DNA from: Aestuariivirga sp.
GTDB taxonomy: Bacteria; Pseudomonadota; Alphaproteobacteria; Rhizobiales; Aestuariivirgaceae
NCBI GenBank assembly: GCA_030680855.1
Contig: JAUXUN010000002.1
Location: 1-54,493 of the forward strand
Length of the DNA stretch: 54,493 bases
Direction of reading: 5' to 3'
Shown: positions 744 through 19,542 of the stretch, piece after piece
Position numbering within the stretch: the stretch's first letter is position 1
Layout: the number at the start of each line of letters is the position of its first letter
Notes under the pieces: model-generated
The model's input: the letters and a program-made list of their open reading frames with translations, nothing else
Told to the model about the DNA's origin: nothing
Database searches by the model: none
Program-made: the position numbers and the translations under genes

Positions 744-803
744 GTGTGGAAACAGTTGCCCGTGGCAAGTTAAAGATTTTACGGTTAAAAAGGTTCAACA
801 CAC

Positions 804-1112: not shown

Positions 1113-1834
1113 CGTTCGCCCTCCGTCAGCCGGCGATAAAGACTGTTGGCGCGGGTTAAATGAGCGCGAAGCGCCTGTTCGGCCATGTCGGCGTCGCGGC
1201 GCTTTATGCCTTCAAGAATTGCTGCGTGTTCGGTCAAGGTTAACTCCTCTGCCCCGATGATTCGTACGAGGTGCTGATAAAATTCTCCGAGCCAGCTTAT
1301 TAACGCTTCGCTAAGTACTGGAAAAATGGAATTACCGGTCATCTGAGCGATTTCCCGGTGAAACAGCATGTCATGGTGCATGAACTGGCTGAGATCGGAA
1401 AGGGAAGCCACATGCGCGGCATGGCGATCTTCCAGGCGCTCGATATTCTCTTTAGTGGCCCGTTCGGCTGCCAGTCGTACCATTTGGATTTCAAAGATCA
1501 GCCGCGCTTCCTTCAATTCTTCCAGACTGCGGTCCGAGTTGCGGAGGATGCCGCTTGTGGTAAGCGAGACGGTTTGCATTAAGTTGGTGAAGTTGGGGGC
1601 GGCAACGCTTGCACGTTCCCCCGGGTTCAGGGAAATCAGACCGATGCGTGCCAGGTTTTGCAGGGCCTCGCGCACGGCGGGGCGGCCGACTTTATAAAGG
1701 TTCATAAGCTCTCGTTCGGACGGCAAAAGGTCGCCGGGCTGAAGGCCTGTTTCCTTTACTACCGCCAGAATGCGCTCCATCACGTCCTGGTAGAGGCGTC
1801 GCCGTTTGATGGGTTCGGGTGTGAAGCTGGACAC
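1109..1834 (-). CDS. FadR/GntR-family transcriptional regulator (FCD domain)
   Basis: This 241-residue regulator has an N-terminal winged helix (about residues 12-80, with LLPSERELMNLYKVGRPAVR as the recognition region) and an all-alpha FCD ligand domain (about 95-235) containing the expected Asp/His metal or ligand positions, such as MHHDMLFHREIAQM. It is closest in feel to the NanR branch. The gene is the last of the minus-strand operon, four bases after a permease gene, so it is made with the transporter and enzymes it probably controls. The likely operator is the TGGTATACTA palindrome in the divergent promoter at 8633-8642. The inducer is probably the imported sugar or its oxidised product; this is inferred only from context. 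Confidence 0.85.
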   Translation of the reverse strand: MSSFTPEPIKRRRLYQDVMERILAVVKETGLQPGDLLPSERELMNLYKVGRPAVREALQNLARIGLISLNPGERASVAAPNFTNLMQTVSLTTSGILRNSDRSLEELKEARLIFEIQMVRLAAERATKENIERLEDRHAAHVASLSDLSQFMHHDMLFHREIAQMTGNSIFPVLSEALISWLGEFYQHLVRIIGAEELTLTEHAAILEGIKRRDADMAEQALRAHLTRANSLYRRLTEGER

Positions 1835-1838
1835 GGCG

Positions 1839-5436: not shown

Positions 5437-5519
5437 GTGTGCCCGATTTGAATGCGTCCAAGCAGGCATTGCCGGCCGTAGGGAGAATCGGCCGGAAATG
5501 CCCACTGTTCTTGACTATA

Positions 5520-6512
5520 CTACTTGCCTGCTAGCAGTTTGCAGCCCCACATGCGCATCTCGTCCGTGCCGAGATTGGCCTGCGTAAGGGCAAAGCCCGG
5601 ATCAGGCATGATCTTGTTAGGCTGGGTTTCCTTGGCTTCGATTGCAGCAAGTATCGCGTTCATCGCTGAATCGGCCTCGAAAAAAAGATCCTGCACACCA
5701 GTCGCGTCCACAAAGCCTTCCTTGATCAGCTGACAAGCGGTTTTGTCGCCGTCGAGGCCAGCCATCAGCACATGACCTTCTTCGCCGCGTTTTTTCCACA
5801 TGCCACGTGGTTCAAATACGGAGCGGATTGTTGGGAAGAGAAAGTCAGAGGACGTAAATAGCAGATCAACCTGTGGATTGGCCGTCACGGCGGCCTCAAG
5901 ATTGGCCAGCGCCGTCGCAGCATCCCACTTGGAAGCTACTTCAATGACATTGAAGCGATCTTTGTTTTTGTTGATGGACGCATAGAAGCCATCCTTGCGG
6001 CCCACGGCATTCGGGTCACCCAGGTCGCCCACGATGATGATGGCGTTCAGCTTTTTGTCGGGCGGCGCCTTTGCGAGGGCCTCGGCGGTAACATAGTCCA
6101 CGGCCTGTTCAGCAATAGTCTTGTTGTCCGCAACGACTACAATACCTTTTGACGTGTCCGTCGGTGGGCGGTTGAATACAGCGATTGGAATGTCGGCAGC
6201 TTGCGATTCTTTCACAATCGTCACGGCACTTTCACCGTCCTGCGGGATGACGATGATGCCATCAACGTTCTGTGCGATGCAGTCCTTCACCTGTTCAAGC
6301 TGCTTGTTGGCGTCTTCATTCGCGTTACTTTCCAGCACTTCGTGGTTGGAAGCCTTCAATGTTTCAGTGATAGCTTTGTGGCCAGCAACCCAGAACTCCG
6401 TTTCGAGATCCTGGAAAGCGAAGCAGATCTTTGCGGCATGGGCACTGCCGGATGACAGCAGTCCGGCTGTCGTTAAGATGGCGGCTGCCATTGTGTATTT
6501 AAGCGATTTCAT
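5520..6512 (-). CDS. Periplasmic sugar-binding protein of the ribose/galactose type (RbsB-like)
   Basis: This 330-residue protein starts with a clear signal peptide (about residues 1-26, ending SGSAHA) after a strong AGGAGG ribosome-binding site. The mature part has the Peripla_BP_4 fold: KICFAFQDLETEFWVAG at the start of lobe 1, then VDGIIVIPQDGESAV and IPIAVFNRPPTD, typical of RbsB-type proteins. It would capture the substrate in the periplasm and hand it to the permeases encoded downstream. Proteins of this family were the starting point for finding D-apiose pathways, and the two dehydrogenases just upstream in the operon fit that substrate. The exact ligand cannot be read from the sequence. 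The 129-bp gap before it is the longest in the operon and may hold a secondary promoter or processing site. Confidence 0.88.
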   Translation of the reverse strand: MKSLKYTMAAAILTTAGLLSSGSAHAAKICFAFQDLETEFWVAGHKAITETLKASNHEVLESNANEDANKQLEQVKDCIAQNVDGIIVIPQDGESAVTIVKESQAADIPIAVFNRPPTDTSKGIVVVADNKTIAEQAVDYVTAEALAKAPPDKKLNAIIIVGDLGDPNAVGRKDGFYASINKNKDRFNVIEVASKWDAATALANLEAAVTANPQVDLLFTSSDFLFPTIRSVFEPRGMWKKRGEEGHVLMAGLDGDKTACQLIKEGFVDATGVQDLFFEADSAMNAILAAIEAKETQPNKIMPDPGFALTQANLGTDEMRMWGCKLLAGK

Positions 6513-6641
6513 TTGTCGTTCCTCCTGAACATGTTGTTTTAGGCTTCAGGCGCAACGTGTTTTCACATTGCGGCCTATCGAGACCATGGTGTGCCATGGA
6601 CTGGATATGGTGAGAGTGGCTTCGACAAGCCGGATCGTGCC

Positions 6642-7688
6642 TCATGCGGCCTGCTCCAAAGTTCTCTTGACTATTTGCGTTTGGTGTGTCCTTGACGATG
6701 CGGTTGCGGCAATCACCACGGCGAGCGTTTCAAGATTATGTGCGCCTGAAGGTGCTGCTTCCGCGGCGCCGTTCAGAACTGCAACAACGTGGGTCTGAAA
6801 GGCCCGGACAGATTCTTGCACCAGGTGCCAGGGCCTTTGACCCCAAGCCGGGACGCTGGGTTCACAGTTTTCATTGGTCACGCCATGGATTGACGTAATG
6901 CGGAGCTCATAGCCGGCCAACAATTCAATCGTGCCTCGCGTTCCTTCCAATTGCGCCAACGTCTGAGGGAAAGGATCGGGTTCCATGCGGCTGTAGAAAG
7001 AGCACTCGATACTGCCCACAGCGCCGGAGTGAAAACGTAGCAAAGCCTGGAAGGCATCCTGCCCCGCCACGCGCGGGTTAAGTGTCTGTGTTTCGCAGGT
7101 AACGCGTTCAATGTCCCCCATCAGGGAGCGGGCCAGATCGAAAAGATGAAGACCGACATCCGTGAGCGCCAAATCAGCAATACCGGCGAGGTATGGTTGG
7201 CGCGCATAAATATCGAAAGCATGGCGAAAGGAAAGCCGGAGGAATTGTGTTGGCCCAATCCTGCCTTCGTCGAGCAATTGACGCATGTGGCGGAAGGGCT
7301 TCTGCCACCGGAAGTTTTCATGCACGACAAGCTTGGCGCCTGTCGCTTCGCAGGCGCGCACCATCTCTGCTGCGTCTTGCAACGTCTCAGCAAAGGGCTT
7401 CTGGCAGATGACAAGTTTTGTATGCTTTGCTGCAAGTGTCACCAGCGCGTGGTGTGACGAAACAGTTGTCGCGATGTCAACAAAATCCGGTTTCATAGAT
7501 TCCAGCATAACCTTGGTGTCGGTAAAGGCCTGACAGCCGAACTGCTCAGAGAAATGCCTGGCTTTGGCTTCATCGCGATCACAAACAGCCACAATTGTCA
7601 CACTCGAAATTTCGGACCATGCATGCATGTGGTTCGCTGCGAAGAATCCGCAACCAATGAGAACACCGCGGTGCCTTTCGTCACACAT
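6642..7688 (-). CDS. Gfo/Idh/MocA-family NAD(P)-dependent sugar dehydrogenase, D-apiose dehydrogenase-like
   Basis: A 348-residue cytosolic oxidoreductase. The N-terminal Rossmann domain begins with GVLIGCGFFAANHMHAW, and the conserved catalytic-lysine motif CQKPFAETL lies near residue 100. The C-terminal substrate domain contains VHENFRWQKPFRHM and LTDVGLHLFDLARSLMG, with the usual active-site Asp and His. The motifs CGFFAxNHxHxW, VHENFRxQ, DVGxHxxDLAR and DPFPxTLxxxEG, as I recall them, match D-apiose dehydrogenase (ApsD), which oxidises D-apiose to D-apionolactone. The next enzyme in the operon resembles the D-apionate enzyme ApnO, which supports this reading. Family membership is certain; the substrate is an inference and could be another branched or furanose sugar. 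An AGGAG site precedes the ATG. Confidence 0.75.
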   Translation of the reverse strand: MCDERHRGVLIGCGFFAANHMHAWSEISSVTIVAVCDRDEAKARHFSEQFGCQAFTDTKVMLESMKPDFVDIATTVSSHHALVTLAAKHTKLVICQKPFAETLQDAAEMVRACEATGAKLVVHENFRWQKPFRHMRQLLDEGRIGPTQFLRLSFRHAFDIYARQPYLAGIADLALTDVGLHLFDLARSLMGDIERVTCETQTLNPRVAGQDAFQALLRFHSGAVGSIECSFYSRMEPDPFPQTLAQLEGTRGTIELLAGYELRITSIHGVTNENCEPSVPAWGQRPWHLVQESVRAFQTHVVAVLNGAAEAAPSGAHNLETLAVVIAATASSRTHQTQIVKRTLEQAA

Positions 7689-7721
7689 TGTCGCGCACTC
7701 CTGCTCTGTGCCGCTCTGGCG

Positions 7722-8567
7722 CTAAGAAATTTTCCCGTGCACGATCAGATCGGAAGCTTGGCGTATCACCTTGGGCGACAAGGCCTCGCGCCAGTTCGGC
7801 TGCATGATCTTTGACTTGCCGAATTGCAGCAGACGCAGGGCTGCATCCGAAGGAACCTTCGGTGAATAGCCAAACCACATGGCGATCTCGACATTGAGGT
7901 GGCCGATCAGGAAGTCCTTGGCCGCCTGACGGTCAATGCCATAACTTTTCTCGCATTCGTCCACGGCCTCGGTCATGACATCGACCATGCACATGGCCAG
8001 CATTTCCGATAAGCCGGGTTCGAGAATGGCAAGCTGTTCCACTGTGACCCGGTGTGTCTTGGTAACGGGCGACCACATGGCCTCGCAAATTTCGACGCCA
8101 ACAGCATAATGTTCTTCCGGGCCCTGCATGAGGGCGCAGACGATGGCCTGTTTTGCTACGCCACCATGATAGTCGCGCCGCGCGGCCCACTCTGTCTCAT
8201 CATTGTAAAGCGGTGGATGGCAGGGATGGCCTACAAAATAGGTAAGGTCTGGCCGGTTCTTCGGCAAGGCGTCGGCATAGGGCGCTGCTGCGTCAAGGAT
8301 CAAGAGCATTGTGCCTGATGCAAGTTGGGACTCGATTTCGGCTGCAACCGTTCCAATAATGTTATCAGGCAGCGCCATTACAACGATCTGCACATCTTTC
8401 AAGCCATCAATGATTGTGGTTGCTGCAAGGCCCGCCTCAGCCAGGCGTTTCCTGCCAAGGTCTCCGATTTCAATCGCTCGCAGGTCGTAGCCTGATTCAA
8501 ACAATTTCTTGGTGACGCGAAGACCCATTTTGCCGCCTGCACCGAGAACCGCAACTGATCGCGCCAT
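7722..8567 (-). CDS. PDGH_C-family NAD-dependent dehydrogenase, D-apionate oxidoisomerase (ApnO)-like
   Basis: About 281 residues from the ATG at 8567, which follows GGGAG and begins MARSVAVLGAGGKMGLRV; the frame continues to an ATG at 8606, but that adds 13 residues ahead of the nucleotide-binding fold. After the Rossmann domain come VILD/AAAPYADALP, VGHPCHPPLYNDETEW and a helical domain with ALMQGPEEHYAVG and HRVTVEQLAILEPGLSE. These stretches match, from memory, ApnO, which converts D-apionate to 3-oxo-isoapionate. It is the first gene of the operon and lies 33 bases before the ApsD-like gene. Seen: the family and the operon. Inferred: the substrate. A D-apionolactonase (ApnL), needed between the two steps, is not in this window. 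Confidence 0.72.
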   Translation of the reverse strand: MARSVAVLGAGGKMGLRVTKKLFESGYDLRAIEIGDLGRKRLAEAGLAATTIIDGLKDVQIVVMALPDNIIGTVAAEIESQLASGTMLLILDAAAPYADALPKNRPDLTYFVGHPCHPPLYNDETEWAARRDYHGGVAKQAIVCALMQGPEEHYAVGVEICEAMWSPVTKTHRVTVEQLAILEPGLSEMLAMCMVDVMTEAVDECEKSYGIDRQAAKDFLIGHLNVEIAMWFGYSPKVPSDAALRLLQFGKSKIMQPNWREALSPKVIRQASDLIVHGKIS

Positions 8568-8607
8568 TTCAAATCTCCCAAAAAACGAGGCTTTTTTTGT
8601 CTTCATG

Positions 8608-8652
8608 CCTCTTGATACAATGCTATGCTACCTAGTATACCATAATTGTCAA
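8608..8652. promoter_or_regulatory. Overlapping divergent promoters with a shared GntR-type operator
   Basis: On the minus strand, TTGACA (8647-8652), a 16-base spacer and TAGCAT (8625-8630) form a good sigma-70 promoter for the dehydrogenase/transporter operon. On the plus strand, TTGATA (8612-8617), 18 bases and TATACC (8636-8641) could serve the TIM-barrel gene. The near-palindrome TAGTATACCA (8633-8642; TGGTATACTA on the other strand) lies in the spacer of the first and covers the -10 of the second. It fits the FadR/GntR consensus TNGTN(0-3)ACNA and contains GGTATA, the element bound by NanR. The regulator at 1109 is the natural candidate to bind it, which would repress both directions at once. 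Confidence 0.5.
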
Positions 8653-8684
8653 TATGATTTATGGCTGAGGGAGAAGTCAGGGAA

Positions 8685-9542
8685 ATGAAAAGGCGCCACA
8701 TCAGCGTGTCGACGGTGGCCTATGAAGGCTATCCCATTGAAACAGCCTTCGGAGAACTGGTGAGACTCGGCATCCCTTTGGTCGAGCCCGCCTATATCAA
8801 GGGCTACATGTCCTTTTCCGAGGATGATTTCGAAGACGCCGCGATCGGAAAGATGCAGCAGCTGCTGCAACAACATGGGTTAAGCAGCATTGCGATCTCC
8901 GCGCACATGAACTGTGGTGCACCAGACGCGCAGGAGATGCTGGCCCGTCGGCTGCGCTTCACGGCGGGCATCGGTGCTCGCTACACAATAACCAATTCCT
9001 CGCCGATCGATCAACGCGAGACTTTGAAACGGACCATTGAGGCCAATATTCCCCTGGCGGAGAAACTGGGCGTGGTCATTGCTCTTGAAAACCCTGGGCA
9101 TGGCCCGACAAACCTCATGGTTGATGGCAAGGCTGCTGCAGCTTTGATCGGGCATTTCAATTCACCTTACGTCCGCATGAACTATGACACCAGCAACGCG
9201 CTTACCTGCACGGAGGGCAAGACGCGACCAGAGCAAGATATAGACTATGCGCTACCCCATTCCTGTCACGTGCATTTGAAGGACGTCGTCCGCAAGAACG
9301 ACCGTTGGGAATATGTGGCAATCGGTGCTGGAGAAATTGACTATGCACTTCTGCTTTCCAAGCTGGCCAATTGGCCGGACCTCCCGCTCACCCTTGAGCT
9401 GCCCCTGCGATTGCGAAGAACATTCCACCAAGATCCAGTGCGAAGACCTGACGTAATACCTTTGAACGAGATTGCCGCTGCCATCCAACAGTCCTGGGAT
9501 TGCTGTGCGCAGGCCATCGAAAATGTGGCGCCAGCAAGATAG
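8685..9542 (+). CDS. TIM-barrel sugar isomerase/epimerase-family enzyme, possible 3-oxo-isoapionate decarboxylase
   Basis: About 285 residues from the ATG at 8685, chosen because GAGGGAG lies upstream; an ATG at 8661 has no ribosome-binding site. The protein is an AP-endonuclease-2/xylose-isomerase-like TIM barrel. The four metal ligands of the family are visible: Glu in VIALENPGHG, Asp in MNYDTSNAL, His in HVHLKDV and Glu in LTLELPL. It is transcribed away from the dehydrogenase operon through a shared control region. In one oxidative apionate route, 3-oxo-isoapionate is decarboxylated to L-erythrulose (OiaC); this protein could be that enzyme, but the family also contains many epimerases and isomerases. 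The fold is certain; the reaction is a guess from context. Confidence 0.7.
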   Translation: MKRRHISVSTVAYEGYPIETAFGELVRLGIPLVEPAYIKGYMSFSEDDFEDAAIGKMQQLLQQHGLSSIAISAHMNCGAPDAQEMLARRLRFTAGIGARYTITNSSPIDQRETLKRTIEANIPLAEKLGVVIALENPGHGPTNLMVDGKAAAALIGHFNSPYVRMNYDTSNALTCTEGKTRPEQDIDYALPHSCHVHLKDVVRKNDRWEYVAIGAGEIDYALLLSKLANWPDLPLTLELPLRLRRTFHQDPVRRPDVIPLNEIAAAIQQSWDCCAQAIENVAPAR

Positions 9543-9656
9543 GTATCGCCACAGCGCTCGCCATTTGCATCGCCGCAACTGTCATCTTCTGGCTAGCGAA
9601 GATTGTTGTCGCGCTAAATGAGGTGCGATCAACACTTATGCTTAGACGTCCAAAGG

Positions 9657-9822
9657 CTTGGCGGAAACTTGGCGGTAAATGCCGTTTTGTCCCGTCTTCG
9701 AACGTACTTGGCGGTCCCCGAAAGTTCTCATAAGTATTTGAAATATGTCGATTTGTGCGTCACGGCCAGACCTTGACATGGTAGGGGCCACAGGTTCGAA
9801 CCCTGTACCGCCCACCATTTTC
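9657..9822 (+). repeat. Island attachment-site repeat, copy 1 (att with tRNA-Val 3' fragment)
   Basis: This stretch recurs at 19387-19542 with about 85-90% identity and one 10-base insertion here (9721-9730). It begins with three CTTGGCGG motifs (9657, 9668 and 9707), which look like integrase arm-binding sites, and ends with the tRNA fragment at 9771-9817 followed by a shared TTTTC. The layout, integrase arms followed by the displaced 3' end of a tRNA gene, is that of an island's attR. Sequence identity stops sharply after 9822, marking the junction between two neighbouring islands. Confidence 0.7.
9771..9817 (+). other. 3' fragment of tRNA-Val(GAC), not a functional tRNA
   Basis: The bases give an anticodon loop TTGACAT (anticodon GAC, valine), a 3' anticodon strand GGTAG, a T-arm ACAGG-TTCGAAC-CCTGT, an acceptor strand ACCGCCC, discriminator A and an encoded CCA. 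The matching 5' half (acceptor GGGCGGT, D-arm) is absent: the bases before CC do not pair. The fragment begins at the anticodon loop, a preferred crossover site of tRNA-targeting tyrosine recombinases. The 3' anticodon strand differs from copy 2 by one base (GGTAG against GGCAG). Confidence 0.75.
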
Positions 9823-10284
9823 CTAAGCAGTTCAGCATTCCTATCAGTTAGTTTTGGTTGGGTTTCTTGATGTTGGGCTTTCTGGTTCTTTTTTCGACTC
9901 CCGAATTTGGTTTTCGGGTCCAATTTGCACCTTGGGCACCGTTTGAACAATTGGGAATGCCATGCATTCGAGAGAAGTTTAGTGACAGTGCGGGCAGGCT
10001 GTGCCTTTGCATCAAAGCTTACGGGAACGTGGGTCCGGCATTCGCTGATTCTTTGCACTGGTGATACCAATAATCCGCAGTTGATTTACTTTTTCTGCTC
10101 AACGACCACTCAGCCAGCTCGTTGATCTCATAAAATACTCATCCGCCATGCTTCCTGAAACAGGGGTCCACCAAAGACTGCAGATTTGCAAACGCCGGGC
10201 AAGAATGGCCATCCGTGTTTTTGTTAAATCGAGGCGCACCGGCCCTCAAAGCGGATTTCGACATGGTTAAACTCTATTCTGACC
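9823..10284. other. Intergenic region at the left end of the 9.7-kb island
   Basis: This stretch lies between the attachment repeat and the LacI promoter. Reading frames exist on both strands, but none has a plausible start, ribosome-binding site or recognisable motif; the longest minus-strand frame merely runs through the tRNA fragment. No integrase gene or remnant is recognisable, which is notable because an island's integrase gene often sits next to an attachment site. Confidence 0.5.
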
Positions 10285-10318
10285 GTGATTGACGTACCTC
10301 ACCTCGGGAAACTATAGT
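10285..10318 (+). promoter_or_regulatory. lacI-type gene promoter with overlapping operator
   Basis: TTGACG (10289-10294), an 18-base spacer and TATAGT (10313-10318) form a promoter 20 bases before the LacI-family start codon. The 18-base near-palindrome GTGATTGACGTACCTCAC (10285-10302) covers the -35. On the other strand it reads GTGAGGTACGTCAATCAC, closely matching the operator at 11646. Autorepression by the LacI-type protein is the simplest reading. Confidence 0.6.
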
Positions 10319-10338
10319 CACGTTTTGAGGAAGCGCAA

Positions 10339-11373
10339 ATGACAAGGCCAACTGTACGGGATATTGCAAGGGAGGCGGGCGTCAGTTTGGCGACCGTTGA
10401 CCGTGTGCTGAACTCCCGGCCCCGTGTACGGGAAAACAGCATAAGGCTTGTCCAGGACGCTGTTGAGAAGCTGGGATATGTTCGTGACGTATCCGCGGCG
10501 AACCTGGCAAAGCGAAAGGAATATCGCTTCGCTTTCATCATTCCCGACAGCAGGAGCAAGTTCGTCGAGACAATCCTTGCGGCTTTGAACGAAGTAAAAC
10601 AGGTTCCTGGTCCCGATCGAATTTCAGTCGACACAATCCTTGCCCCGGCGGATGACGCGAATGCCACTGCGCGCATTCTGACCGGACTTGACGTGCAGCG
10701 ATTCGATGGCGTCGCAATCATGTGTCCGGAAACACCACAAGTGCGTGACGCCGTGATACGGCTCAAGCAAGCTGGACTGGCCGTGGTCGCATTGGTTTCT
10801 GATCTGCCCAGTTCCAGGCGTGACCACTTTGTGGGGGTTGACAACAAGGCCGCCGGGCGGACAGCGGGTGCTCTAATGGGCCGGTTTCTTTGTGGAAAAC
10901 AGGGAAAGGTCCTCGTGGTCTCGGGCTCACTTTTGTCCCGGGACAGCATCGAGCGGCGGTTTGGATTTGACGGTATCCTTGCAGAGCGCTTTCCGTCTTT
11001 GGTGGTTCTGCCGACCGTTGAGTCCCGCAATGACAACTATCGTCTGATATCTATTGTCAAACAAGTCATGACTGCTCACCGCGATATCTTGGGCATCTAC
11101 GCCCTGGGCAGCGGCAACTCCGCAATTCTGGATGCATTGAGGGCAACAGGAAGGATTCGAAGCTGCACTCTAATAATGCATGAGTTGACGGAAATAACGC
11201 GTGCGGCTTTGGAGGCCGACGAGGTGGATGTGGTGATCATGCAGAATGTAGGTCATCTTGTACGCAGTTCGATCCGTGTATTGCGTGCGTATTCGGACAA
11301 CACGCCAATAGTAGACTCACAGGAAAAGATCCGGATTGAAATTGTCACGAAAGAGAACCTCGTCGAGTTGTGA
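10339..11373 (+). CDS. LacI-family transcriptional regulator
   Basis: A 344-residue regulator with the classic N-terminal HTH and hinge (TVRDIAREAGVSLATVDRVL, residues 4-23) followed by a periplasmic-binding-protein-like ligand domain (about residues 65-340). GAGGAAG precedes the ATG. It stands directly upstream of the transporter operon in the same orientation. The same palindrome occurs at its own promoter and twice before the operon, so it probably controls itself and the operon; most LacI regulators repress until a sugar or sugar phosphate binds. The ligand domain resembles those that bind pentoses or polyols rather than lactose, but the effector cannot be named. Confidence 0.9.
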   Translation: MTRPTVRDIAREAGVSLATVDRVLNSRPRVRENSIRLVQDAVEKLGYVRDVSAANLAKRKEYRFAFIIPDSRSKFVETILAALNEVKQVPGPDRISVDTILAPADDANATARILTGLDVQRFDGVAIMCPETPQVRDAVIRLKQAGLAVVALVSDLPSSRRDHFVGVDNKAAGRTAGALMGRFLCGKQGKVLVVSGSLLSRDSIERRFGFDGILAERFPSLVVLPTVESRNDNYRLISIVKQVMTAHRDILGIYALGSGNSAILDALRATGRIRSCTLIMHELTEITRAALEADEVDVVIMQNVGHLVRSSIRVLRAYSDNTPIVDSQEKIRIEIVTKENLVEL

Positions 11374-11614
11374 AGGTTGATCTCGAAAATTGGGGCGATT
11401 GCGCCGATATCGAAATCTCCAACTAGTTGCTCCGGGCATATGATTGGCATTGATTGGCTTCAAGAAGCCAGGGTATAGGACTTATCCCAGTTCTCAGCGA
11501 GCGAGTGTCGTCGCCATCCATTGGCGAACCAAACGCAATGACTCGATTATTAACTATCTGATTCTAAACATTAAAACTTTCCACAAGTTGCGATCAGTGA
11601 AAGCGTACTTCCAA
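11374..11614. other. Intergenic region between the LacI gene and the transporter operators
   Basis: This AT-rich stretch after the LacI stop codon holds no credible gene. Short reading frames lack ribosome-binding sites. I saw no strong hairpin followed by a T-run, so a terminator for the LacI gene is not evident. Confidence 0.4.
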
Positions 11615-11669
11615 CTGAGATACGTAGCTAAAAAAACTTCTTGACGTGAGGTACGTAACTCACTAAATC
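11615..11669 (+). promoter_or_regulatory. Transporter operon promoter with two LacI-type operators
   Basis: TTGACG (11641-11646), a 17-base spacer and TAAATC (11664-11669) form a sigma-70 promoter. The near-perfect palindrome GTGAGGTACGTAACTCAC (11646-11663) fills the spacer. A weaker copy, CTGAGATACGTAGCTAAA (11615-11632), starts 31 bases upstream, close to three helical turns. The spacing suggests two repressor dimers bound on one face of the DNA. The core TACGTA lacks the central CG flanked as in CcpA/PurR sites but has the right length for a LacI-family operator. Confidence 0.65.
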
Positions 11670-11747
11670 TTGCTCCCGTCGTTTCCGGGCAAATTGCTTC
11701 CAATTGAACTAGCGGGGCATGCCCATCACAACGGGAGGAGACTAAAA

Positions 11748-13067
11748 ATGAAGATCAAGACCCTACTGAGTGCCACGGCGCTTGCGTGCTCATTATCCGC
11801 CTCGAACGCATATGCGGAAGACCTGACGCTGTGCTGGGCCGCTTGGGACCCCGCTAACGCGCTGGTCGAGCTGTCTAAGGATTTTGAGTCCAAATCAGGC
11901 CACAAGATGCATTTTGAATTTGTGCCCTGGCCCAACTTCGCCGACCGGATGCTGAACGAATTGAACTCGGGCGGCAAGCTTTGCGATCTGATGATCGGCG
12001 ACAGTCAGTGGATCGGCGGCGCAGCCGAGAGCGGACACTACGTCAAGCTGAACGATTTCTTCGATGCCAATGGCATCAAGATGGACGATTTCGTTCCCGC
12101 CACGGTCATCGGCTATTCGGAATGGCCAAAGAACACGCCGAACTACTGGGCCCTGCCGGCCTTTGGCGATGTCGTCGGCTGGACCTATCGCAAGGATTGG
12201 TTCGCACGGCCTGAACTGCAGGCCGAATTCAAAACAAAATACGGCCGCGAGCTTGTCGCTCCCGCAACCTTTGCTGAATTGAAGGACATTGCCGCATTCT
12301 TCCAGAACCGGACAATCGACGGCAAGACAGTCTACGGTGCCTCGATCTATACCGAGCGCGGCTCCGAAGGCATTACGATGGGCGCCATGGACGTGCTCTA
12401 CAGCTTCGGCTTCAAATACGACAATCCAAAAAAACCTTATGAGATGGCGGGGTTCGTCAACTCACCTGGTGCTGTTGCGGGCCTTGAATTCTATAAGGCG
12501 CTCTACGATTGCTGCACACCTCCAGGCTCCTCGAACGGCTATATGGGTGAAGGCATTGACGCTTTCAAATCCGGGCAAGTCGCACTGCAGATGAACTTTG
12601 CCTTTACCTGGCCGGGCTTCGAGGCCGATCCAAATGTCGGCGGTGGCAAAACCGGCTATCTGGTCAACCCGGCAGGCCCCAGTGGCGAAAAGTTCGCCCA
12701 GCTTGGCGGTCAGGGCATTTCGGTGGTGTCATACTCAACAAAGCAGGACGCGGCGCTTGAATACATCAAATGGTTTGCACAGCCCGATGTGCAGCAGAAA
12801 TGGTGGAAGGCCGGCGGTTTCTCCTGTCTGAGGTCAGTGGTTGAGGCAGCCGATTTTGCAACCAGCCAGCCCTATGCCCAGACCTTCCTCGACTCGATGG
12901 CTATCGTAAGGGACTTCTGGGCGGAGCCAAGCTATGCGACGCTGCTTCAGGACACGCAAAAGCGTTTCCACGACTATGTCGTTGCCGGGAAGGGCACGGC
13001 ACAGGAGGCACTTGACGGGTTGGTTGAGGATTGGGCCAAAACTTTCAAGGACGACGGCAAGGTCTGA
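11748..13067 (+). CDS. Sugar ABC transporter substrate-binding protein (MalE/UgpB-type, family 1)
   Basis: About 439 residues from the ATG at 11748, which follows GGGAGGAG; the open frame extends to 11670, but the signal peptide starts here (MKIKTLLSATALACSLSASN, cleaved near AYA-ED). The mature protein has the SBP_bac_1 fold, with LCWAAWDPANALVELSKDF and MHFEFVPWPNF at the start of lobe 1 and ALPAFGDVVGWTYRKDW in the hinge region. Unusually for the family it has several cysteines (CWAAW, LCDLM, YDCCTPPGS, FSCLRS), which could form disulfides in the periplasm. It is the first gene of an operon that also encodes two permeases, two ATPases and a DhaK-type kinase; a three- or four-carbon ketose, polyol or derived sugar is a reasonable guess for the ligand. 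Confidence 0.88.
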   Translation: MKIKTLLSATALACSLSASNAYAEDLTLCWAAWDPANALVELSKDFESKSGHKMHFEFVPWPNFADRMLNELNSGGKLCDLMIGDSQWIGGAAESGHYVKLNDFFDANGIKMDDFVPATVIGYSEWPKNTPNYWALPAFGDVVGWTYRKDWFARPELQAEFKTKYGRELVAPATFAELKDIAAFFQNRTIDGKTVYGASIYTERGSEGITMGAMDVLYSFGFKYDNPKKPYEMAGFVNSPGAVAGLEFYKALYDCCTPPGSSNGYMGEGIDAFKSGQVALQMNFAFTWPGFEADPNVGGGKTGYLVNPAGPSGEKFAQLGGQGISVVSYSTKQDAALEYIKWFAQPDVQQKWWKAGGFSCLRSVVEAADFATSQPYAQTFLDSMAIVRDFWAEPSYATLLQDTQKRFHDYVVAGKGTAQEALDGLVEDWAKTFKDDGKV

Positions 13068-13074
13068 ACCTTAG

Positions 13075-13120
13075 AGGGCTCTTCTGAATAGAAGGGCAAC
13101 AGGAATCCGCGCAGAGCCCT
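13075..13120 (+). other. Intercistronic hairpin after the binding-protein gene
   Basis: AGGGCTCT (13075-13082) pairs exactly with AGAGCCCT (13113-13120). A further GGGCCC palindrome follows at 13134-13139. There is no T-run, so this is more likely a stabilising or attenuating hairpin than a full terminator. Such structures often raise the level of a binding protein over its permeases, as between malE and malF. Confidence 0.45.
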
Positions 13121-13174
13121 GATACACTTCATCGGGCCCTGCGCGCGCATTCCAAATCAGTCGAAAGAAACCTT

Positions 13175-14122
13175 ATGTTGAACACCATGACGGAGCGCGT
13201 CGCAAAAGTCACGCCGCTGGCGGCCGTACGCCGTATCAGAGGCCTCAGCGACCGTACGATTGCCTGGATCTTCGTGGCGCCGACAATCTTTCTGCTGCTC
13301 GCGATCAATATCTTTCCCTTGGTTTGGACGATCCGGCTCAGCTTGACAAACTATCGGGCCAACCAGCCAAACCGACCGTTGCAATGGGTGGGTTTGGATA
13401 ACTACCGCCGAATCCTGAACGATTCCGATATCTGGAACACAATGCAGGTCACGGCGCATTTCCTTATCTGGACGATCGTCCTTCAGGTGCTCATCGGGTT
13501 CACACTTGCGTGGCTCATCAACCGCAAATTCAAGGGCAACGATCTGTGGACGACGATCATTGTGCTGCCGATGATGCTGTCGCCCGCGGTGGTTGGAAAT
13601 TTCTGGACATTTTTCTACCAGCCGCAGATTGGCATCTTCAACTATGTGGTGGCATTCTTCGCAGGCGCGGATCCGTCGTCCTTTACCATGATCGGGTCGG
13701 TCGATCTGGCGCCTTGGTCCATTGTGATCGTTGACACATGGATGTGGACACCTTTCGTAATGCTGATCTGTCTTGCTGGCCTGCGTTCGATCCCGAGCTA
13801 CATCTACGAAGCCGCGGCCATCGACCGGGCAAGCAGCTGGCGGCAATTCTGGACTATCACCATCCCTATGGTGATGCCGTTTCTGATGCTCGCGGTGCTG
13901 TTCCGCGGCATCGAGAATTTCAAGATGTTCGATCTTGTGGTTCAGTTGACGGGCGGCGGCCCGGGATCCACCACGGAGCTCACATCGATCAATCTGAAAC
14001 GCGAAGCCTTCGAGAAATGGCGCACCGGCTATGCCTCTGCCTATGCGATCATCCTCTTTGTTACCGTCTTTGGGTTGGCCTCGATTTACGTGAAGGCGCT
14101 GAACAAGGTGAAAGAAAGATGA
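13175..14122 (+). CDS. Sugar ABC transporter permease (MalF-type)
   Basis: A 315-residue inner-membrane protein of the BPD_transp_1 family with six predicted membrane segments. The first is IAWIFVAPTIFLLLAINIFP (about residues 29-48), the usual opening of CUT1 permeases. The EAA loop that docks onto the ATPase reads EAAAIDRASSWRQFWTITIP, about 90 residues from the C-terminus. It overlaps the next permease gene by four bases (ATGA at 14119). An ATG at 13187 is an alternative start. With the permease at 14119 it would form the transmembrane channel for the binding protein at 11748. Confidence 0.9.
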   Translation: MLNTMTERVAKVTPLAAVRRIRGLSDRTIAWIFVAPTIFLLLAINIFPLVWTIRLSLTNYRANQPNRPLQWVGLDNYRRILNDSDIWNTMQVTAHFLIWTIVLQVLIGFTLAWLINRKFKGNDLWTTIIVLPMMLSPAVVGNFWTFFYQPQIGIFNYVVAFFAGADPSSFTMIGSVDLAPWSIVIVDTWMWTPFVMLICLAGLRSIPSYIYEAAAIDRASSWRQFWTITIPMVMPFLMLAVLFRGIENFKMFDLVVQLTGGGPGSTTELTSINLKREAFEKWRTGYASAYAIILFVTVFGLASIYVKALNKVKER

Positions 14123-15060
14123 GCAGCTATTCGATCACCGCACCCTCATCGAGGCAGAAATGGATCGCCGGAACCATTGTCATCCTCTACGCGCTGATCA
14201 CCATCACGCCGCTGGTCTGGATTATCGCAACCGGGTTCAAGAGCGGTCCCGATTCGATCTCTTATCCGCCCAAGGTCCTGTTCCAGCCCACGCTTGAGGG
14301 TTATGTGAACCTCTTTACCACACGCACGCGGGCAAACGCCGAGGATCTGGCCGCGATGCCGCCGCCTGAGACCTGGTATGAACAGGTCGTACGCGACAAT
14401 GGCATGGTCATCGCCGGGCCATCGCGCTACGGCGAGCGCTTCCTCAACTCGGTGATCATCGGCTTCGGCTCGACTTTCCTGTCGGTCTTTCTCGGAACGC
14501 TGGCGGCTTATGCCTTCAGCCGCTTCAAGATTCCGCTCAAGGACGATCTCCTGTTCTTTATCCTGTCGACGCGCATGATGCCGCCGATCGCCGTCGCGAT
14601 CCCGATATTCCTGATGTTCCGCACGCTGGGGCTCAGCGACACGCATCTTGGAATGATCCTGCTTTATACTGCGGTGAATATCTCGCTTGCCGTCTGGCTG
14701 CTCAAGGGCTTCATCGACGAGATCCCCCGGGAATACGAAGAGGCGGCATTGATCGACGGCTATACGAGGTTCCAGGCATTCTACAAAGTCGTGCTGCCGC
14801 AGGCCGCCACGGGCATCGCCTCGACCGCGATCTTCTGCCTGATTTTTGCCTGGAACGAATACGCCTTTGCCGTGCTGCTGACCTCTGGCACGGCCCAGAC
14901 CGCACCGCCCTTCATCCCCACCATCATCGGTGTAGGCGGGAAGGACTGGCCGGCCGTCGCAGCGGGGGCCACATTGTTCCTCTTGCCGGTCATGGTTTTC
15001 ACGATCCTCCTGCGCAAACACTTGCTGCGGGGCATCACCTTCGGGGCGGTGCGGAAATGA
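14119..15060 (+). CDS. Sugar ABC transporter permease (MalG-type)
   Basis: The protein has 313 residues from the ATG at 14119, which overlaps the preceding stop; a longer open frame back to 13738 is a shadow of the first permease. Membrane segments begin with WIAGTIVILYALITITPLVW. A long periplasmic loop with EDLAAMPPPETWYEQVVRDN separates segments 1 and 2, longer than in MalG. The EAA loop is EEAALIDGYTRFQAFYKVVL. The stop overlaps the start of the small membrane protein gene by four bases, so the operon is continuous. Confidence 0.9.
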   Translation: MSSYSITAPSSRQKWIAGTIVILYALITITPLVWIIATGFKSGPDSISYPPKVLFQPTLEGYVNLFTTRTRANAEDLAAMPPPETWYEQVVRDNGMVIAGPSRYGERFLNSVIIGFGSTFLSVFLGTLAAYAFSRFKIPLKDDLLFFILSTRMMPPIAVAIPIFLMFRTLGLSDTHLGMILLYTAVNISLAVWLLKGFIDEIPREYEEAALIDGYTRFQAFYKVVLPQAATGIASTAIFCLIFAWNEYAFAVLLTSGTAQTAPPFIPTIIGVGGKDWPAVAAGATLFLLPVMVFTILLRKHLLRGITFGAVRK

Positions 15061-15245
15061 GCGAATTCGTGAACGGCTTGCTCCGCCTGCGCCGCGGCCC
15101 ATGGGAAATAGTCGCCTCGATCCTGATCGCCATCGGTGTCGTGATGTTGATGCAGGACGTGGCCCTCTGGCTATATACCTATTCCTTCATCGTTACGCTG
15201 GTGGGCACTGTCATGTTCATCGTTGTCAGTCATTTTCCGGAGTGA
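15057..15245 (+). CDS. 62-residue membrane protein inside a sugar transporter operon
   Basis: A small protein with two hydrophobic helices (about residues 17-36 and 41-58) and a basic N-terminal segment (LLRLRRGP), suggesting the N-terminus faces the cytoplasm. Four-base overlap with the permease gene and a three-base gap to the ATPase gene make it a true operon member. I do not recognise a named family. Rhizobial glycerol importers (GlpSTPQUV) also carry a small membrane protein, GlpU, next to two ATPases and two permeases, so an accessory role in transporter assembly or stability is possible; that is analogy, not homology I can show. Confidence 0.7.
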   Translation: MSEFVNGLLRLRRGPWEIVASILIAIGVVMLMQDVALWLYTYSFIVTLVGTVMFIVVSHFPE

Positions 15246-15248
15246 GCA

Positions 15249-16346
15249 ATGGCCGAGATCACAATTCGTAATCTTCGCAAGGAGTTCGGCGATTTCACCG
15301 CCGTCCAGTCGTCGTCCTTCAAGATCGAAGACGGAGAATTCTTCATGCTTCTCGGCCCCTCCGGCTGCGGCAAGACGACGACGCTACGGATGATCGCTGG
15401 TTTGGAGTTGCCCAGTTCTGGGGAAATCAAAATCGACGGCGAAGAAGTTGCCCAGAAACCCGCCAGTCAGCGCGATATTGCCTTTGTTTTTCAAATGTTC
15501 GCGCTCTACCCGCACATGAACGTCCGCAAAAACCTGAGCTATCCTCTGGTCAGCCAAGGCATGCCCCGTGTACAGGTGCGCGCCAAGGTGGCCGAGGTTG
15601 CGAAGATCCTCGGGATCGAAGCTATTCTCGAAAAACCCATCGGCTGTCTCTCCGGCGGTGACCGCCAGCGCGTCGCCCTTGGCCGCGCCATTGTTCGCAA
15701 CCCCAAGGCCTTCATGATGGACGAGCCGCTCGGCGCTCTGGATGCAGAGTTCCGCGAGCACATGGCAGTGGAACTGCGTGCCCTCCATGACCGCATGGGC
15801 GCAACCACAGTCTACGTCACGCATGACCAGCTGGAAGCCATGCGGATGGGTGACAAGATTGTCGTCATGAACCGTGGCACTATCGAACAGTTCGGCAAGC
15901 CTCAGGACATCTACGACAAACCCGCAACCATGTTCGTTGCCGATTTCATCGGTTCGCCCTCGATGAACTTTCTCCGGTTCCATGGCAATGTTGAAAGGGG
16001 CACTACATCCGTCAAGCTGCATCACCAGCCACTCGCCATTCCGGAAATGCGTGAGCCTTTCGAAGGAGATATGGTTTTTGGCGTGCGGCCCGAACACGTC
16101 CGGCTGACTGACTCAGGTGGCTATCGCGGTCAGGTGAAGGCGACGGAATATCTCGGCACAACACAGATCGTCACACTGAACACCGCGCTTGGCGTTATCA
16201 AGGCGCGGACGGCATCGGGTCAGGTAGCGCGGGTCGGAGAGACGGTCGGGCTGGAATTTGACGGCAAGACCGTGACATTGTTCGACAACCAAACCGGCCG
16301 TGCGCTGCGATCCGACCTGAATGAGGGGGTGCTTGCTCATGGCTGA
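15249..16346 (+). CDS. Sugar ABC transporter ATPase (MalK/UgpC-type), first of two
   Basis: A 365-residue cytosolic ATPase: Walker A GPSGCGKTTT (about residues 36-45), Q-loop VFQMFALYPHM, signature LSGGDRQRVALGRA, Walker B AFMMDEPLGALD, H-loop VYVTHDQ, and a C-terminal MalK-type regulatory beta domain with FGVRPEHVRL. The signature has Asp where most CUT1 ATPases have Gln. A second, different ATPase gene follows with an 8-base overlap, so the transporter probably uses an ATPase heterodimer, as in GlpS/GlpT-type systems, instead of the usual homodimer. Confidence 0.9.
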   Translation: MAEITIRNLRKEFGDFTAVQSSSFKIEDGEFFMLLGPSGCGKTTTLRMIAGLELPSSGEIKIDGEEVAQKPASQRDIAFVFQMFALYPHMNVRKNLSYPLVSQGMPRVQVRAKVAEVAKILGIEAILEKPIGCLSGGDRQRVALGRAIVRNPKAFMMDEPLGALDAEFREHMAVELRALHDRMGATTVYVTHDQLEAMRMGDKIVVMNRGTIEQFGKPQDIYDKPATMFVADFIGSPSMNFLRFHGNVERGTTSVKLHHQPLAIPEMREPFEGDMVFGVRPEHVRLTDSGGYRGQVKATEYLGTTQIVTLNTALGVIKARTASGQVARVGETVGLEFDGKTVTLFDNQTGRALRSDLNEGVLAHG

Positions 16347-17334
16347 GGTTTCACTTCGCAAGGCCAGCAAGTCCTTCGGCAAGGACATCGCCCTTGCCGA
16401 CGTCACGATGACGGTTCCGGACGGATCTTTCGTCGTGCTGCTGGGACCAACAGGTGCAGGCAAGACGACCACGCTCCGGCTGATTTCCGGGCTCGAACGC
16501 CCGGACAGCGGCGATATCCTGATCAACGGGCGATCAGTCCTGGGGGCAACACCGGCGCAACGCGATGTCGCCATGGTGTTCCAGCAGTATTCGCTATATC
16601 CGCACATGTCGGTGCGCGACAATCTGGCCTTTCCGCTGCGCTCGCCGATCCTCAAGACCCCCGAGGACGAGATCAGGCGCAAGGTGGCCGAGGTAGCGGA
16701 AGTGCTGCGCATTTCCGGCAAGCTCGACAACAAGGCGACCACACTTTCAGGTGGCGAGATGCAACGGGTATCCATCGGCCGGGCGCTGGTGCGCAATCCC
16801 TCGATCTACCTTATGGATGAGCCGCTGAGTTCGCTGGACGCCAAGTTGCGCGCCGACCTGCGGGTCGAACTTAAAAGCATCCAGGCCGATCTAGGCGCGA
16901 CATTCCTCTATGTGACCCACGACCAGATCGAAGCGATGACAATGGCGACGCATATTGGCGTCCTCGACCGGGGCCGCCTGGTGCAATTTGGCTCACCCCG
17001 CGACATCTACGAGAATCCGGTCAGTCTCTACGTTGCCAGCAGGCTTGGCATACCGCGGCTGAACGTTCTCCCGGCGAGTGTATTTGGCGGAGCACCTTAC
17101 GGTGCAATGACGATTGGTCTGCGTCCTGAACATATTTCGCAAGGCGTGGGCAAACCCGCCAGTGTGACCCGTGTCGAACATCTGGGCGACCAGACCCGAT
17201 TGCACTTGAGTCTGGAAGGCCACGACATCGTTACACTGACCGATGTGCACACAGGCCTTGAACCGGGCGATCATATTGCAATACAACCCCACAATCCGCT
17301 TTTTTTTGACGCTGGCGGCGCCCGTATCGCTTGA
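16339..17334 (+). CDS. Sugar ABC transporter ATPase (MalK/UgpC-type), second of two
   Basis: About 331 residues from the ATG at 16339, chosen over an in-frame ATG at 16321 because GAGGGGG sits 9 bases upstream and the protein then begins MAEVSLRKASKSFG. Motifs: Walker A GPTGAGKTTT, Q-loop VFQQYSLYPHM, signature LSGGEMQRVSIGRA, Walker B IYLMDEPLSSLD and H-loop LYVTHDQ, then a C-terminal beta domain with GLRPEHIS. It is clearly different from the upstream ATPase and not a recent duplicate. Ten bases separate it from the kinase gene. Confidence 0.9.
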   Translation: MAEVSLRKASKSFGKDIALADVTMTVPDGSFVVLLGPTGAGKTTTLRLISGLERPDSGDILINGRSVLGATPAQRDVAMVFQQYSLYPHMSVRDNLAFPLRSPILKTPEDEIRRKVAEVAEVLRISGKLDNKATTLSGGEMQRVSIGRALVRNPSIYLMDEPLSSLDAKLRADLRVELKSIQADLGATFLYVTHDQIEAMTMATHIGVLDRGRLVQFGSPRDIYENPVSLYVASRLGIPRLNVLPASVFGGAPYGAMTIGLRPEHISQGVGKPASVTRVEHLGDQTRLHLSLEGHDIVTLTDVHTGLEPGDHIAIQPHNPLFFDAGGARIA

Positions 17335-17344
17335 GGAAACCAAC

Positions 17345-18982
17345 ATGAGACAATTCATCAACACCAAGGAGAAGCTTGTCACGGAAGCAATCGATGGTGC
17401 CTTGCGCACTTCGGGCGGCCGTCTGGCGCGGCTCGACGGATATCCGCATATCAAGGTGGTGGTTCGTACCGACTGGGACAGGTCCAAGGTGGCACTCGTG
17501 TCGGGGGGTGGCTCGGGACATGAGCCGTCACATACCGGTTTCGTTGGACGGGGCATGCTCACCGCAGCCGTCTGCGGCGATGTGTTTGCTTCACCGTCAG
17601 TCGATGCCGTGCTTGCCGGGATACTTGCAGTGACCGGCGGCGCGGGCTGCCTGCTGATTGTCAAGAACTACACCGGGGACCGGCTGAATTTCGGGCTTGC
17701 GGCGGAACGGGCGCGTGCCTTCGGATTGGATGTCAGCATGGTCGTTGTAGACGACGATGTGGCGCTCCCGGGTCTGCCGCAGGCGCGCGGTGTGGCGGGC
17801 ACGCTCTTCGTGCACAAGATCGCGGGCGCGCTGGCGGAAGAGGGTGCCGATCTTGATACGGTGACGAAAGCCGCCAAACAGGTCATCGACGGCGTGATAT
17901 CCCTCGGCATTACGTTGGACACCTGCACAGTTCCGGGCTCACCAAAAGAGGATCGTATTGCCGATGGAAAAGCCGAACTGGGCCTTGGCATTCACGGCGA
18001 GGCCGGCGTGGAACAGGTGGATTTCGAAGGCGCGCGGCAAGCCATGGAGATGATTGTCGACCGGCTGGCCCGGAACATCGAAGCGGGCCCGCATGTTGCC
18101 CTTCTCAACAACCTCGGTAGTGCGACAGCGCTGGAAATGTCGGTCCTTGCTGAAGAATTGGTCCGGTCGCGGATCGGCAGTCAGATCAGCCATATGGTAG
18201 GTCCGGCAACGATGATGACATCGCTCGACATGCACGGATTCTCAGTTTCACTGCTGCCGCTGGCGGGCCAGGCGTTGGCGGGACTTCAGGCGGATGTCGC
18301 ACCCTGGGCATGGCCAGGATGCCATCCAGTATCCGAGGTCAATGTGCTGCCATTGCCCGATGGCCTGACACCCATTCAGCCGATGCCCTCGAAGAACAAA
18401 CATGCCGAAACGCTAATTCGCAGATGTTGCGAGATCCTGATTGCCGCCGAGGGTGATTTGAATGCCCTGGATGCGAAATCTGGGGATGGTGATACCGGAA
18501 CGACACTCTCAACCGCTTCGCGCGCCCTGATCAAGGCGCTCGATCGCCTGCCTTTGGCGGACTGGACGCAGCTCTACCGGGCGATTGGGCTGGAGCTCAG
18601 CCAGACGATGGGCGGCTCTTCCGGAGTACTGCTTGCGATCTTCTTTGCAGCAGCTGGCGACGCATCCGCCAGCGGGCTGAATGCCGTGGACGCCTTGAAA
18701 GCAGGTCTTAGCCGGATCCAGCAGGTCGGGGGTGCGGGTCCGGGCGACAGAACGATGATCGATGCGCTCGCCCCGGCGCTTCAAGCGTTGCCCTCAGGCT
18801 TGGCTGCCTCAGCTATTGCTGCCAGAAAAGGTGCCAACCACACCGCAACAATCACACGCGCCAAGGCCGGACGCGCCAGCTATATTTCCGAAAGCAACCT
18901 CGCCGGCCACAATGACCCGGGTGCAGAGGCTGTCGCGCGTTTGTTCGAAGAATTGCTCCAGCCCGACGACGTTTTCGTTTAG
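17345..18982 (+). CDS. Dihydroxyacetone-kinase-type enzyme (fused DhaK-DhaL), ATP-dependent
   Basis: The protein has 545 residues from the ATG at 17345 (GAGGAAA upstream). The DhaK half (about residues 1-330) has SGGGSGHEPSHTGFVG, which binds the substrate, and LGIHGEAG, whose His forms the covalent hemiaminal with the ketone. The DhaL half (about 355-545) has the ATP/Mg site: KSGDGDTGTT, MGGSSG and GPGDRTMID. Fusion of both halves is typical of ATP-using kinases, not the PTS-linked type. Possible substrates are dihydroxyacetone, glyceraldehyde or L-/D-erythrulose; several erythrulose kinases belong to this family. As the last transporter-operon gene, it probably phosphorylates the imported compound or a product made from it. 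Confidence 0.87.
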   Translation: MRQFINTKEKLVTEAIDGALRTSGGRLARLDGYPHIKVVVRTDWDRSKVALVSGGGSGHEPSHTGFVGRGMLTAAVCGDVFASPSVDAVLAGILAVTGGAGCLLIVKNYTGDRLNFGLAAERARAFGLDVSMVVVDDDVALPGLPQARGVAGTLFVHKIAGALAEEGADLDTVTKAAKQVIDGVISLGITLDTCTVPGSPKEDRIADGKAELGLGIHGEAGVEQVDFEGARQAMEMIVDRLARNIEAGPHVALLNNLGSATALEMSVLAEELVRSRIGSQISHMVGPATMMTSLDMHGFSVSLLPLAGQALAGLQADVAPWAWPGCHPVSEVNVLPLPDGLTPIQPMPSKNKHAETLIRRCCEILIAAEGDLNALDAKSGDGDTGTTLSTASRALIKALDRLPLADWTQLYRAIGLELSQTMGGSSGVLLAIFFAAAGDASASGLNAVDALKAGLSRIQQVGGAGPGDRTMIDALAPALQALPSGLAASAIAARKGANHTATITRAKAGRASYISESNLAGHNDPGAEAVARLFEELLQPDDVFV

Positions 18983-18996
18983 GAGACGCAACAGGG

Positions 18997-19080
18997 GTGA
19001 GCATTGTCGAGGCGAACCCTGCCAAAGGTGCCCGGAAAGCGGCCCCCAACCGCGAGATCGACGTCTTATCGCGAGTATAA
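18997..19080 (+). pseudogene. Possible 5' stub of a lost gene
   Basis: A GTG at 18997 follows AGGAG (18981-18985) at suitable distance and opens 27 codons (starting VSIVEANPAKGARKA) before TAA. It sits just behind the kinase gene where another operon member would be expected. The peptide is too short to assign, and I do not recognise it. It may be the start of a gene whose rest was lost when the island's right end was rearranged, or chance. Confidence 0.25.
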
Positions 19081-19386
19081 TTGCAACTGGCTTAAAATCT
19101 GCTGCTATTCCCGCCCTCGCGGCTGAATGAAAAAATCCGTCCAAAGGATTTAGCTGCACATCCAAAACAAAACCCGCAGGCGACCAGTTTGCCAGGGGGA
19201 TCCCGTGTTGGTGGAAATCGACACCAGATCGACGTACAATCCGCCCGCTTCGTCGATGATGAGCCAGATACTGCATTTGGCCCACAGCGTGTGATTTCGT
19301 CGCCAACAATCCGCTTGCCCTCTTAGTGCAAGTAGACTTCAGGCGGAAGGAGGAGCGACGTACACTTACGCATAGGCGACCACAGA
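19081..19386. other. Intergenic region at the right end of the island
   Basis: No intact gene is visible. A minus-strand frame spans the region but only continues through the tRNA fragment and has no ribosome-binding site. A short stretch around 19190-19260 could be decayed coding sequence on the minus strand, but I cannot identify it. Confidence 0.4.
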
Positions 19387-19542
19387 CTTGGCGGAAACTT
19401 GGCGGTAGATGCCGTTTTGTTCTGTCTTCGTTCTTACTTGGCGGTTTTCGTAAGTATCTGAAATATATCAATTTGTGTGTTGCGGCTAGACCTTGACATG
19501 GCAGGGGCCACAGGTTCGAACCCTGTACCGCCCACCATTTTC
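19387..19542 (+). repeat. Island attachment-site repeat, copy 2 (att with tRNA-Val 3' fragment)
   Basis: This is the second copy of the repeat at 9657-9822, in the same orientation. The three CTTGGCGG motifs lie at 19387, 19398 and 19437, and the tRNA fragment at 19491-19537 is followed by the shared TTTTC. It lacks the 10-base insertion of copy 1. It should mark the outer edge of the island array: after 19542 the sequence changes to the exopolysaccharide locus. Confidence 0.7.
19491..19537 (+). other. 3' fragment of tRNA-Val(GAC), second copy, not a functional tRNA
   Basis: It has anticodon loop TTGACAT, 3' anticodon strand GGCAG, T-arm ACAGG-TTCGAAC-CCTGT, acceptor strand ACCGCCC, A and CCA. 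The upstream bases (TAGACC) do not complete the anticodon stem, and no D-arm or 5' acceptor is present. The intact tRNA-Val gene should therefore lie outside the window, to the left if the island array is simple. Confidence 0.75.

Follow-up and report, generated by a model that had tools for sequence, protein, structure and literature searches.

CIMEs are described as elements stripped of their integration and transfer genes that have kept their ends and share one att site with another element in a tandem arrangement (PMC5704250). The Dehalococcoides islands at ssrA, as presented in parts of PMC3146451, are likewise arranged in tandem, bounded by the target gene and by displaced repeats of its 3' end, and carry catabolic cargo; 15 of them lack an integration module. 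The microcin H47 island of E. coli, 13 kb long, has extensive imperfect direct repeats and no recombinase genes, and its excision and integration using functions encoded elsewhere in the cell have been shown (excerpts of PMC3191183).

Here we describe two small islands that belong with these precedents, in a window of 54,493 nucleotides (the whole stretch of DNA analysed) from the genome of an Aestuariivirga sp. As in the CIME accretion of ICESt1-related elements of Streptococcus thermophilus, the elements lie in tandem at one att site, with right ends and cores kept; unlike in that system, both tandem members lack an integrase, no ICE neighbour was found, the host is an alphaproteobacterium, and the att sites are predicted from sequence. 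The likeness to the ssrA islands extends to the tandem arrangement, the displaced 3'-end repeats, the catabolic cargo and the presence of members without an integration module, whereas the Dehalococcoides system combines a serine recombinase with a tmRNA gene and the window combines tRNA-Val(GAC) and tyrosine-type relatives with about 150 bp of conserved right end beside the tRNA part. The microcin H47 island is also small, recombinase-less and framed by imperfect direct repeats; the repeats in the window, however, end in a tRNA 3' part, the cargo is devoted to sugar use and not to a microcin, and the islands are known from sequence alone. In our literature searches, no title or abstract opening was found that names this locus or island family.

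The most probable reading, to which we give a probability of about 0.75, is that two related elements inserted successively into the 3' part of tRNA-Val(GAC), by site-specific recombination of the tyrosine-recombinase type, and that both are now CIME-like and most likely stranded. The predicted order would be the intact tRNA on another contig (C75), a left end, island 1, a P arm with the displaced 3' end at 9770-9817, a second left end, island 2, a P arm with the displaced 3' end at 19490-19537, and the flank. Island 2 is 9,720 bp long (9818-19537), and island 1 would measure about 11 kb if a single insertion sequence (IS) copy spans the contig break. The integrating enzyme was presumably a tyrosine recombinase, and island 2 would be the older of the two, given the one mismatch in its displaced end and its outermost position. 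Both islands appear to have lost their recombination genes, except for excisionase-like traces, and to have retained genes for sugar uptake and catabolism; they could move only with an integrase provided by a neighbour or in trans. The locus gives the impression of a commonplace accumulation of genomic islands, stranded or hitch-hiking, and it is a clear case of catabolic gene gain via small islands stacked at one tRNA gene.

Repeats, shared ends and the intact tRNA gene

The claim of the earlier note that the LacI/ABC/kinase genes are framed by direct repeats ending in a tRNA 3' part is borne out by alignment. Positions 9657-9822 align with 19387-19542 as an imperfect direct repeat, with 140 identical positions, 16 mismatches and 10 gap positions, and both copies terminate in tRNA-Val(GAC) positions 28-75, the final 48 nt, from the anticodon stem and loop to CCA. 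The arms alone (9657-9769 and 19387-19489) align with a score of 136.5, compared with a maximum of 29 reached in 1000 mononucleotide shuffles, and the homology begins further left than first noted, at about 9617 and 19347 (Table 1). A repeat search (seed of 12, minimum of 30 nt) yielded two families, one for each half of this repeat pair, and no other pair. A genome-wide search (85 contigs, 3.73 Mb) at E <= 0.001 matched the repeat four times: at the two window copies, at the intact tRNA and on contig C35, where the tRNA part is degenerate. The repeats are therefore not scattered through the genome. Base composition does not mark the islands (54.4% and 56.5% versus 57.1% and 55.7%), and the window is without an Rfam match.

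Table 1. Coordinates of island features in the window (box distances are from TTGACAT)
Feature	Position	Strand	Basis
One end of an insertion sequence; the opposite end of such an element closes contig C75 past the intact tRNA-Val(GAC)	1..141	+	match to complete IS copy on C33
Island 1 cargo: cNMP-binding (Crp-like) and GntR regulators, ABC transporter (two permeases, ATPase, binding protein), GFO/IDH/MocA dehydrogenase, PGDH_C protein, xylose-isomerase-like protein	216..9542	.	Pfam
Right-end (P-arm) sequence, island 1	9617..9769	+	repeat search, alignment
CTTGGCGG box, -116, island 1	9657..9664	+	pattern match
CTTGGCGG box, -105, island 1	9668..9675	+	pattern match
CTTGGCGG box, -66, island 1	9707..9714	+	pattern match
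Displaced tRNA-Val(GAC) 3' part, predicted att site 1 core	9770..9817	+	48/48 versus intact tRNA
Island 2 left end, homologue of the island 1 left end on C75	9818..10169	+	320/350 identical
19-codon remnant of HTH_17 (excisionase-like) frame, island 2	10109..10165	-	89% identity to C75 version
Island 2 cargo: LacI regulator, binding protein, two permeases, two ATPases, Dak1-Dak2 kinase	10339..18982	.	Pfam
Right-end (P-arm) sequence, island 2	19347..19489	+	repeat search, alignment
CTTGGCGG box, -106, island 2	19387..19394	+	pattern match
CTTGGCGG box, -95, island 2	19398..19405	+	pattern match
CTTGGCGG box, -56, island 2	19437..19444	+	pattern match
Displaced tRNA-Val(GAC) 3' part, predicted att site 2 core, outermost right boundary seen	19490..19537	+	47/48 versus intact tRNA

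ARAGORN detected no intact tRNA in the window. The search of the whole genome for the intact gene proposed in the earlier note, which was made by DNA match and pattern, with ARAGORN run on fetched loci, found a single intact tRNA-Val(GAC), located on contig C75, 602 bp from the contig end. In a global alignment, the DNA 3' of this tRNA is identical to 9818-10169 at 320 of the 350 aligned positions, with 3 further gap positions, and the DNA match gives 91.6% identity over 9826-10169. Islands 1 and 2 thus share both end types, the left ends being 9% and the right arms 18% divergent. This shared left end and the CTTGGCGG boxes go beyond what had been observed originally.

The C75 terminus and the start of the window are the two ends of one type of insertion sequence, which we take to be IS630-type, and their orientation is compatible with a single IS in between. 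The complete copy, 1057 bp long, is on C33, with more diverged copies on C37 (87%) and C26 (82%). It is likely that C75 joins the window directly across one IS copy; this is the simplest possibility, although other partners exist and the join is not unique, because near-identical IS ends are found at two further contigs for each end (C10 and C64; C29 and C11), for a total of three contig ends of each kind terminating in this IS. With this join, which is inferred, island 1 has the intact tRNA at one end and the displaced 3' part at the other, across the contig break; for island 2, the displaced end of island 1 is the left core.

The cargos of the two islands show no similarity in blastn, and the first six tblastx matches between them, five of which lie in ABC ATPase genes, cover 13-64 residues at 33-54% identity. 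Shared end types combined with dissimilar cargos are, as far as sequence can tell, what two related elements arranged in series would show. The common right ends, the common left ends and the tRNA-Val(GAC) on C75 together support the proposal that at least two islands entered one tRNA gene, and the left-hand operon can be upheld as a further island (island 1), its far end being separated from the tRNA by the contig break inside the IS.

No integrase was identified by Pfam among the 26 scanned ORFs of 1-19549, and tblastn with the integrases of the same genome, the integrase of genome G022, the remnant from genome G006 and the F. pinastri fragment (see below) produced nothing better than E 0.25 in 1-19542. 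The nine PF00589 matches in the genome are all on other contigs, with none on C28 or C75. These results agree with the earlier note that the enclosed island has no integrase gene. In the sequenced DNA, neither island carries a recognisable integrase gene of its own, as an autonomous element (ICE, IME or prophage) does, and, as in CIMEs, both integrase and transfer genes are missing from these 26 ORFs. A 45-aa frame in the island 1 left end, on C75, matches HTH_17, presumably an excisionase domain, at 27.9 bits against a cut-off of 27. PF00589 is blind to the G022 integrase-like protein and to the G006 remnant, so that the lack of a Pfam match to an integrase proves little in this group.

Arm boxes and integrases at related loci

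The CTTGGCGG boxes of the arms are candidate integrase arm sites. Their -116/-105/-66 spacing is identical in island 1 and in the third arm copy, on C35, and in island 2 all three boxes are displaced by 10 bp relative to island 1. In G006, a genome of the same genus in which the displaced tRNA end is preceded by the same arm, merely 73-78% identical, two CTTGGCGG boxes and one CTTTGTGG box occupy the -116/-105/-66 places; CTTTGTGG was entered into the box pattern only after this third box had been spotted by eye. The double box occurs three times in the genome, at the arms of island 1, island 2 and C35 only, and its reversed control does not occur. In a sample of 397 genomes from the order, which does not include G006, the double box was found in three, namely, this genome, F. 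pinastri and G357, the last of which was dropped because its 3-kb locus lacks a tRNA. Exact CTTGGCGGAAACTTGGCGG is absent from the viral_contigs collection. Among the seven genome_contigs stretches, one is the G006 contig, with both the remnant and the tRNA present, and one is F. pinastri, adjoining tRNA-Val; the remaining five were set aside as unrelated, as ARAGORN found no tRNA-Val on the fetched DNA. Such fixed box spacing could serve as a signature for integrase-less islands that are overlooked by integrase-based searches.

The retained parts of the att sites are the right ends and the cores; left ends exist but have no recognisable arm boxes. GGCGG boxes are absent within 320 bp of the core on C75 and within 500 bp of the core in the window, unlike in G022, G003, G036, G006 and F. 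pinastri, where the left ends have them, so that the attL sites of the two islands may be chimeric or built on another motif.

The C35 arm is 86% identical to that of island 1 and 89% identical to that of island 2. Next comes a core that lacks the T-arm half of the tRNA, and after it a 448-aa ORF for a tyrosine recombinase, with Phage_integrase and Arm-DNA-bind_3 domains, the stop of which is about 50 bp from the core. This site looks like another, degenerate island junction. Relatives of the recombinase occur at nine loci in eight other genomes (35-41% identity), and none of these loci has tandem CTTGGCGG. We found no evidence that C35 is part of the array in the window: it is absent from the matches to the IS ends, and a search of C35:1-59999 at E 1e-3 did not find the shared left end. 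To the left of the third arm and integrase, PADLOC detected RmrA-like, QatC-like and Fic/SoFic-like defence-like genes (L008 4742-9625).

A displaced tRNA-Val(GAC) end is present in at least five of 36 same-genus genomes (G001, G004, G006, G026 and G027), and PF00589 integrases were located close to the tRNA or to the displaced end in three of the 11 genomes searched (G001, G004 and G027). In G006, a C-terminal integrase remnant adjoins the tRNA (a 141-aa ORF within a 204-codon frame). A search of 120 genomes with this remnant matched four, G006 itself, G022, G003 and G036, and had no match in the genome of the window. In G022, G003 and G036, the match adjoins tRNA-Val(GAC) and is accompanied by two TTGTGGCGG boxes 11 bp apart; the G022 frame is open over 493 codons (L139 1480-2958 (-)), and those of G003 and G036 extend past the fetched locus. 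The G022 protein and the G006 remnant go unscored by PF00589; in tblastn, the G022 protein matched five of 50,697 phage records at 25-36% identity, four of which are annotated as integrase or tyrosine recombinase. In F. pinastri (Hyphomicrobiales), an integrase C-terminus is lined up with tRNA-Val(GAC) and CTTGGCGG boxes. The integrase at tRNA-Val(GAC) is thus found as an open frame, as a remnant or not at all, and these states may form one decay series; same-genus relatives provide the open frame and the remnant, and the genome of the window has neither.

Two further loci concern integrases. The integrase on contig C78 of the same genome was rejected as a helper, as neither an arm nor a tRNA core scored usefully on the 20 kb fetched around it. 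About 4 kb from this integrase, which is 31-37% identical to those adjoining tRNA-Val in G001 and G027, there is a stop-interrupted excisionase-like frame (L129 14201-14326 (-)) that is 64% identical over 42 residues to the C75 frame. The other, which counts in favour of the successive-insertion reading, is in Acetobacter phage phiAX1, where a sequence 89.6% identical to the 48-nt core lies about 80 bp from the integrase gene.

Origin and mobility of the islands

It is very improbable that the repeats are a non-mobile repeated sequence, left by a duplication or as an IS by-product, that contains a tRNA fragment by chance. The C35 arm, one of three such copies in this genome, does lack a complete tRNA end; against this, the displaced fragments span the anticodon stem to CCA, as tRNA att sites should, the opposite (left) ends are shared as well, and the same arm precedes a displaced tRNA end in another species. 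A joint arrival of the two islands, as a composite formed elsewhere and not through separate insertions at this site, is unlikely but has some points in its favour, given that both islands have the same pair of end types and that CIME-ICE tandems, in excerpts of PMC5704250, are able to move as a unit. The divergence of the left ends and right arms, together with the one-base drift in the island 2 core, counts against a recent duplication and not against such a joint arrival.

Whether the islands still move is a separate question, on which the earlier note offered movement in trans and stranding as alternatives; the evidence leans to stranding. Continued mobility, with the C35 tyrosine recombinase or an incoming element acting on the retained att sites, is about as unlikely as a joint arrival. 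It would fit the position of the C35 integrase next to an arm with the island 1 box spacing, the conservation of the box positions in G006, and the single spacing change of 10 bp, about one helical turn; the mobility published in PMC3191183 also concerns an island that lacks an integrase and has extensive imperfect direct repeats. However, the C35 core is incomplete, the nine loci with relatives of its integrase are devoid of tandem CTTGGCGG, and the integrases that adjoin both tRNA-Val and tandem GGCGG boxes (G022, G003 and G036) are of a different family, unmatched in this genome. The excisionase-like frame is short, with 45 codons on C75 and 19 in island 2, and the left ends have no GGCGG boxes. 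Comparably doubtful, and offered as speculation, is the idea that the islands form a family of cassettes without an integrase, in which the catabolic cargo can be exchanged while the tRNA-Val core and a standard P arm, with its three boxes at set distances, are retained. Tyrosine recombinases of neighbours or visitors would move these cassettes in trans, and one such enzyme, that of G022 adjoining tRNA-Val, is missed by the Pfam integrase model. Successive insertion of two related elements followed by stranding remains the preferred reading.

Flanks of the array and other tRNA-Val loci

The upstream genes and the tRNA are conserved in relatives, and no empty site with the right flank of the window was seen in the relatives compared. 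DNA downstream of tRNA-Val is common to 12 genome pairs among 22 genomes, none of which includes the C75 stretch. The FecR gene of the right flank has a sole match among 18 loci, on a G026 contig without tRNA-Val. When the junction 9600-10180 was compared with plasmid and phage collections, the matches were to the tRNA core alone (two of 72,556 plasmid records and one of 50,697 phage records). To the right of the array, where the window contig has no further tRNA-Val end, positions 19653-52955 encode the FecR protein, an AAA_22 ATPase, polysaccharide synthesis genes, an exosortase/DUF3485 gene and a TPR protein.

In G001, a displaced tRNA-Val end (L069 229-276 (+)) and an intact tRNA-Val (L070 479-553 (-)) are oppositely oriented and 20 kb apart on contig C20, which suggests an inversion or an assembly error. 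The G006 contig C14 was set aside, as by eye it begins within a different tRNA-like 3' part. On another G006 contig, C117, the region outside the displaced tRNA end (L066 1366-3221, L114 4308-8948) encodes MocA and PGDH_C proteins that are 43% and 51% identical, respectively, to the products of the island 1 genes, along with a sugar kinase, an isomerase-like protein and dehydrogenases; these genes are possibly a second catabolic island in that genome.
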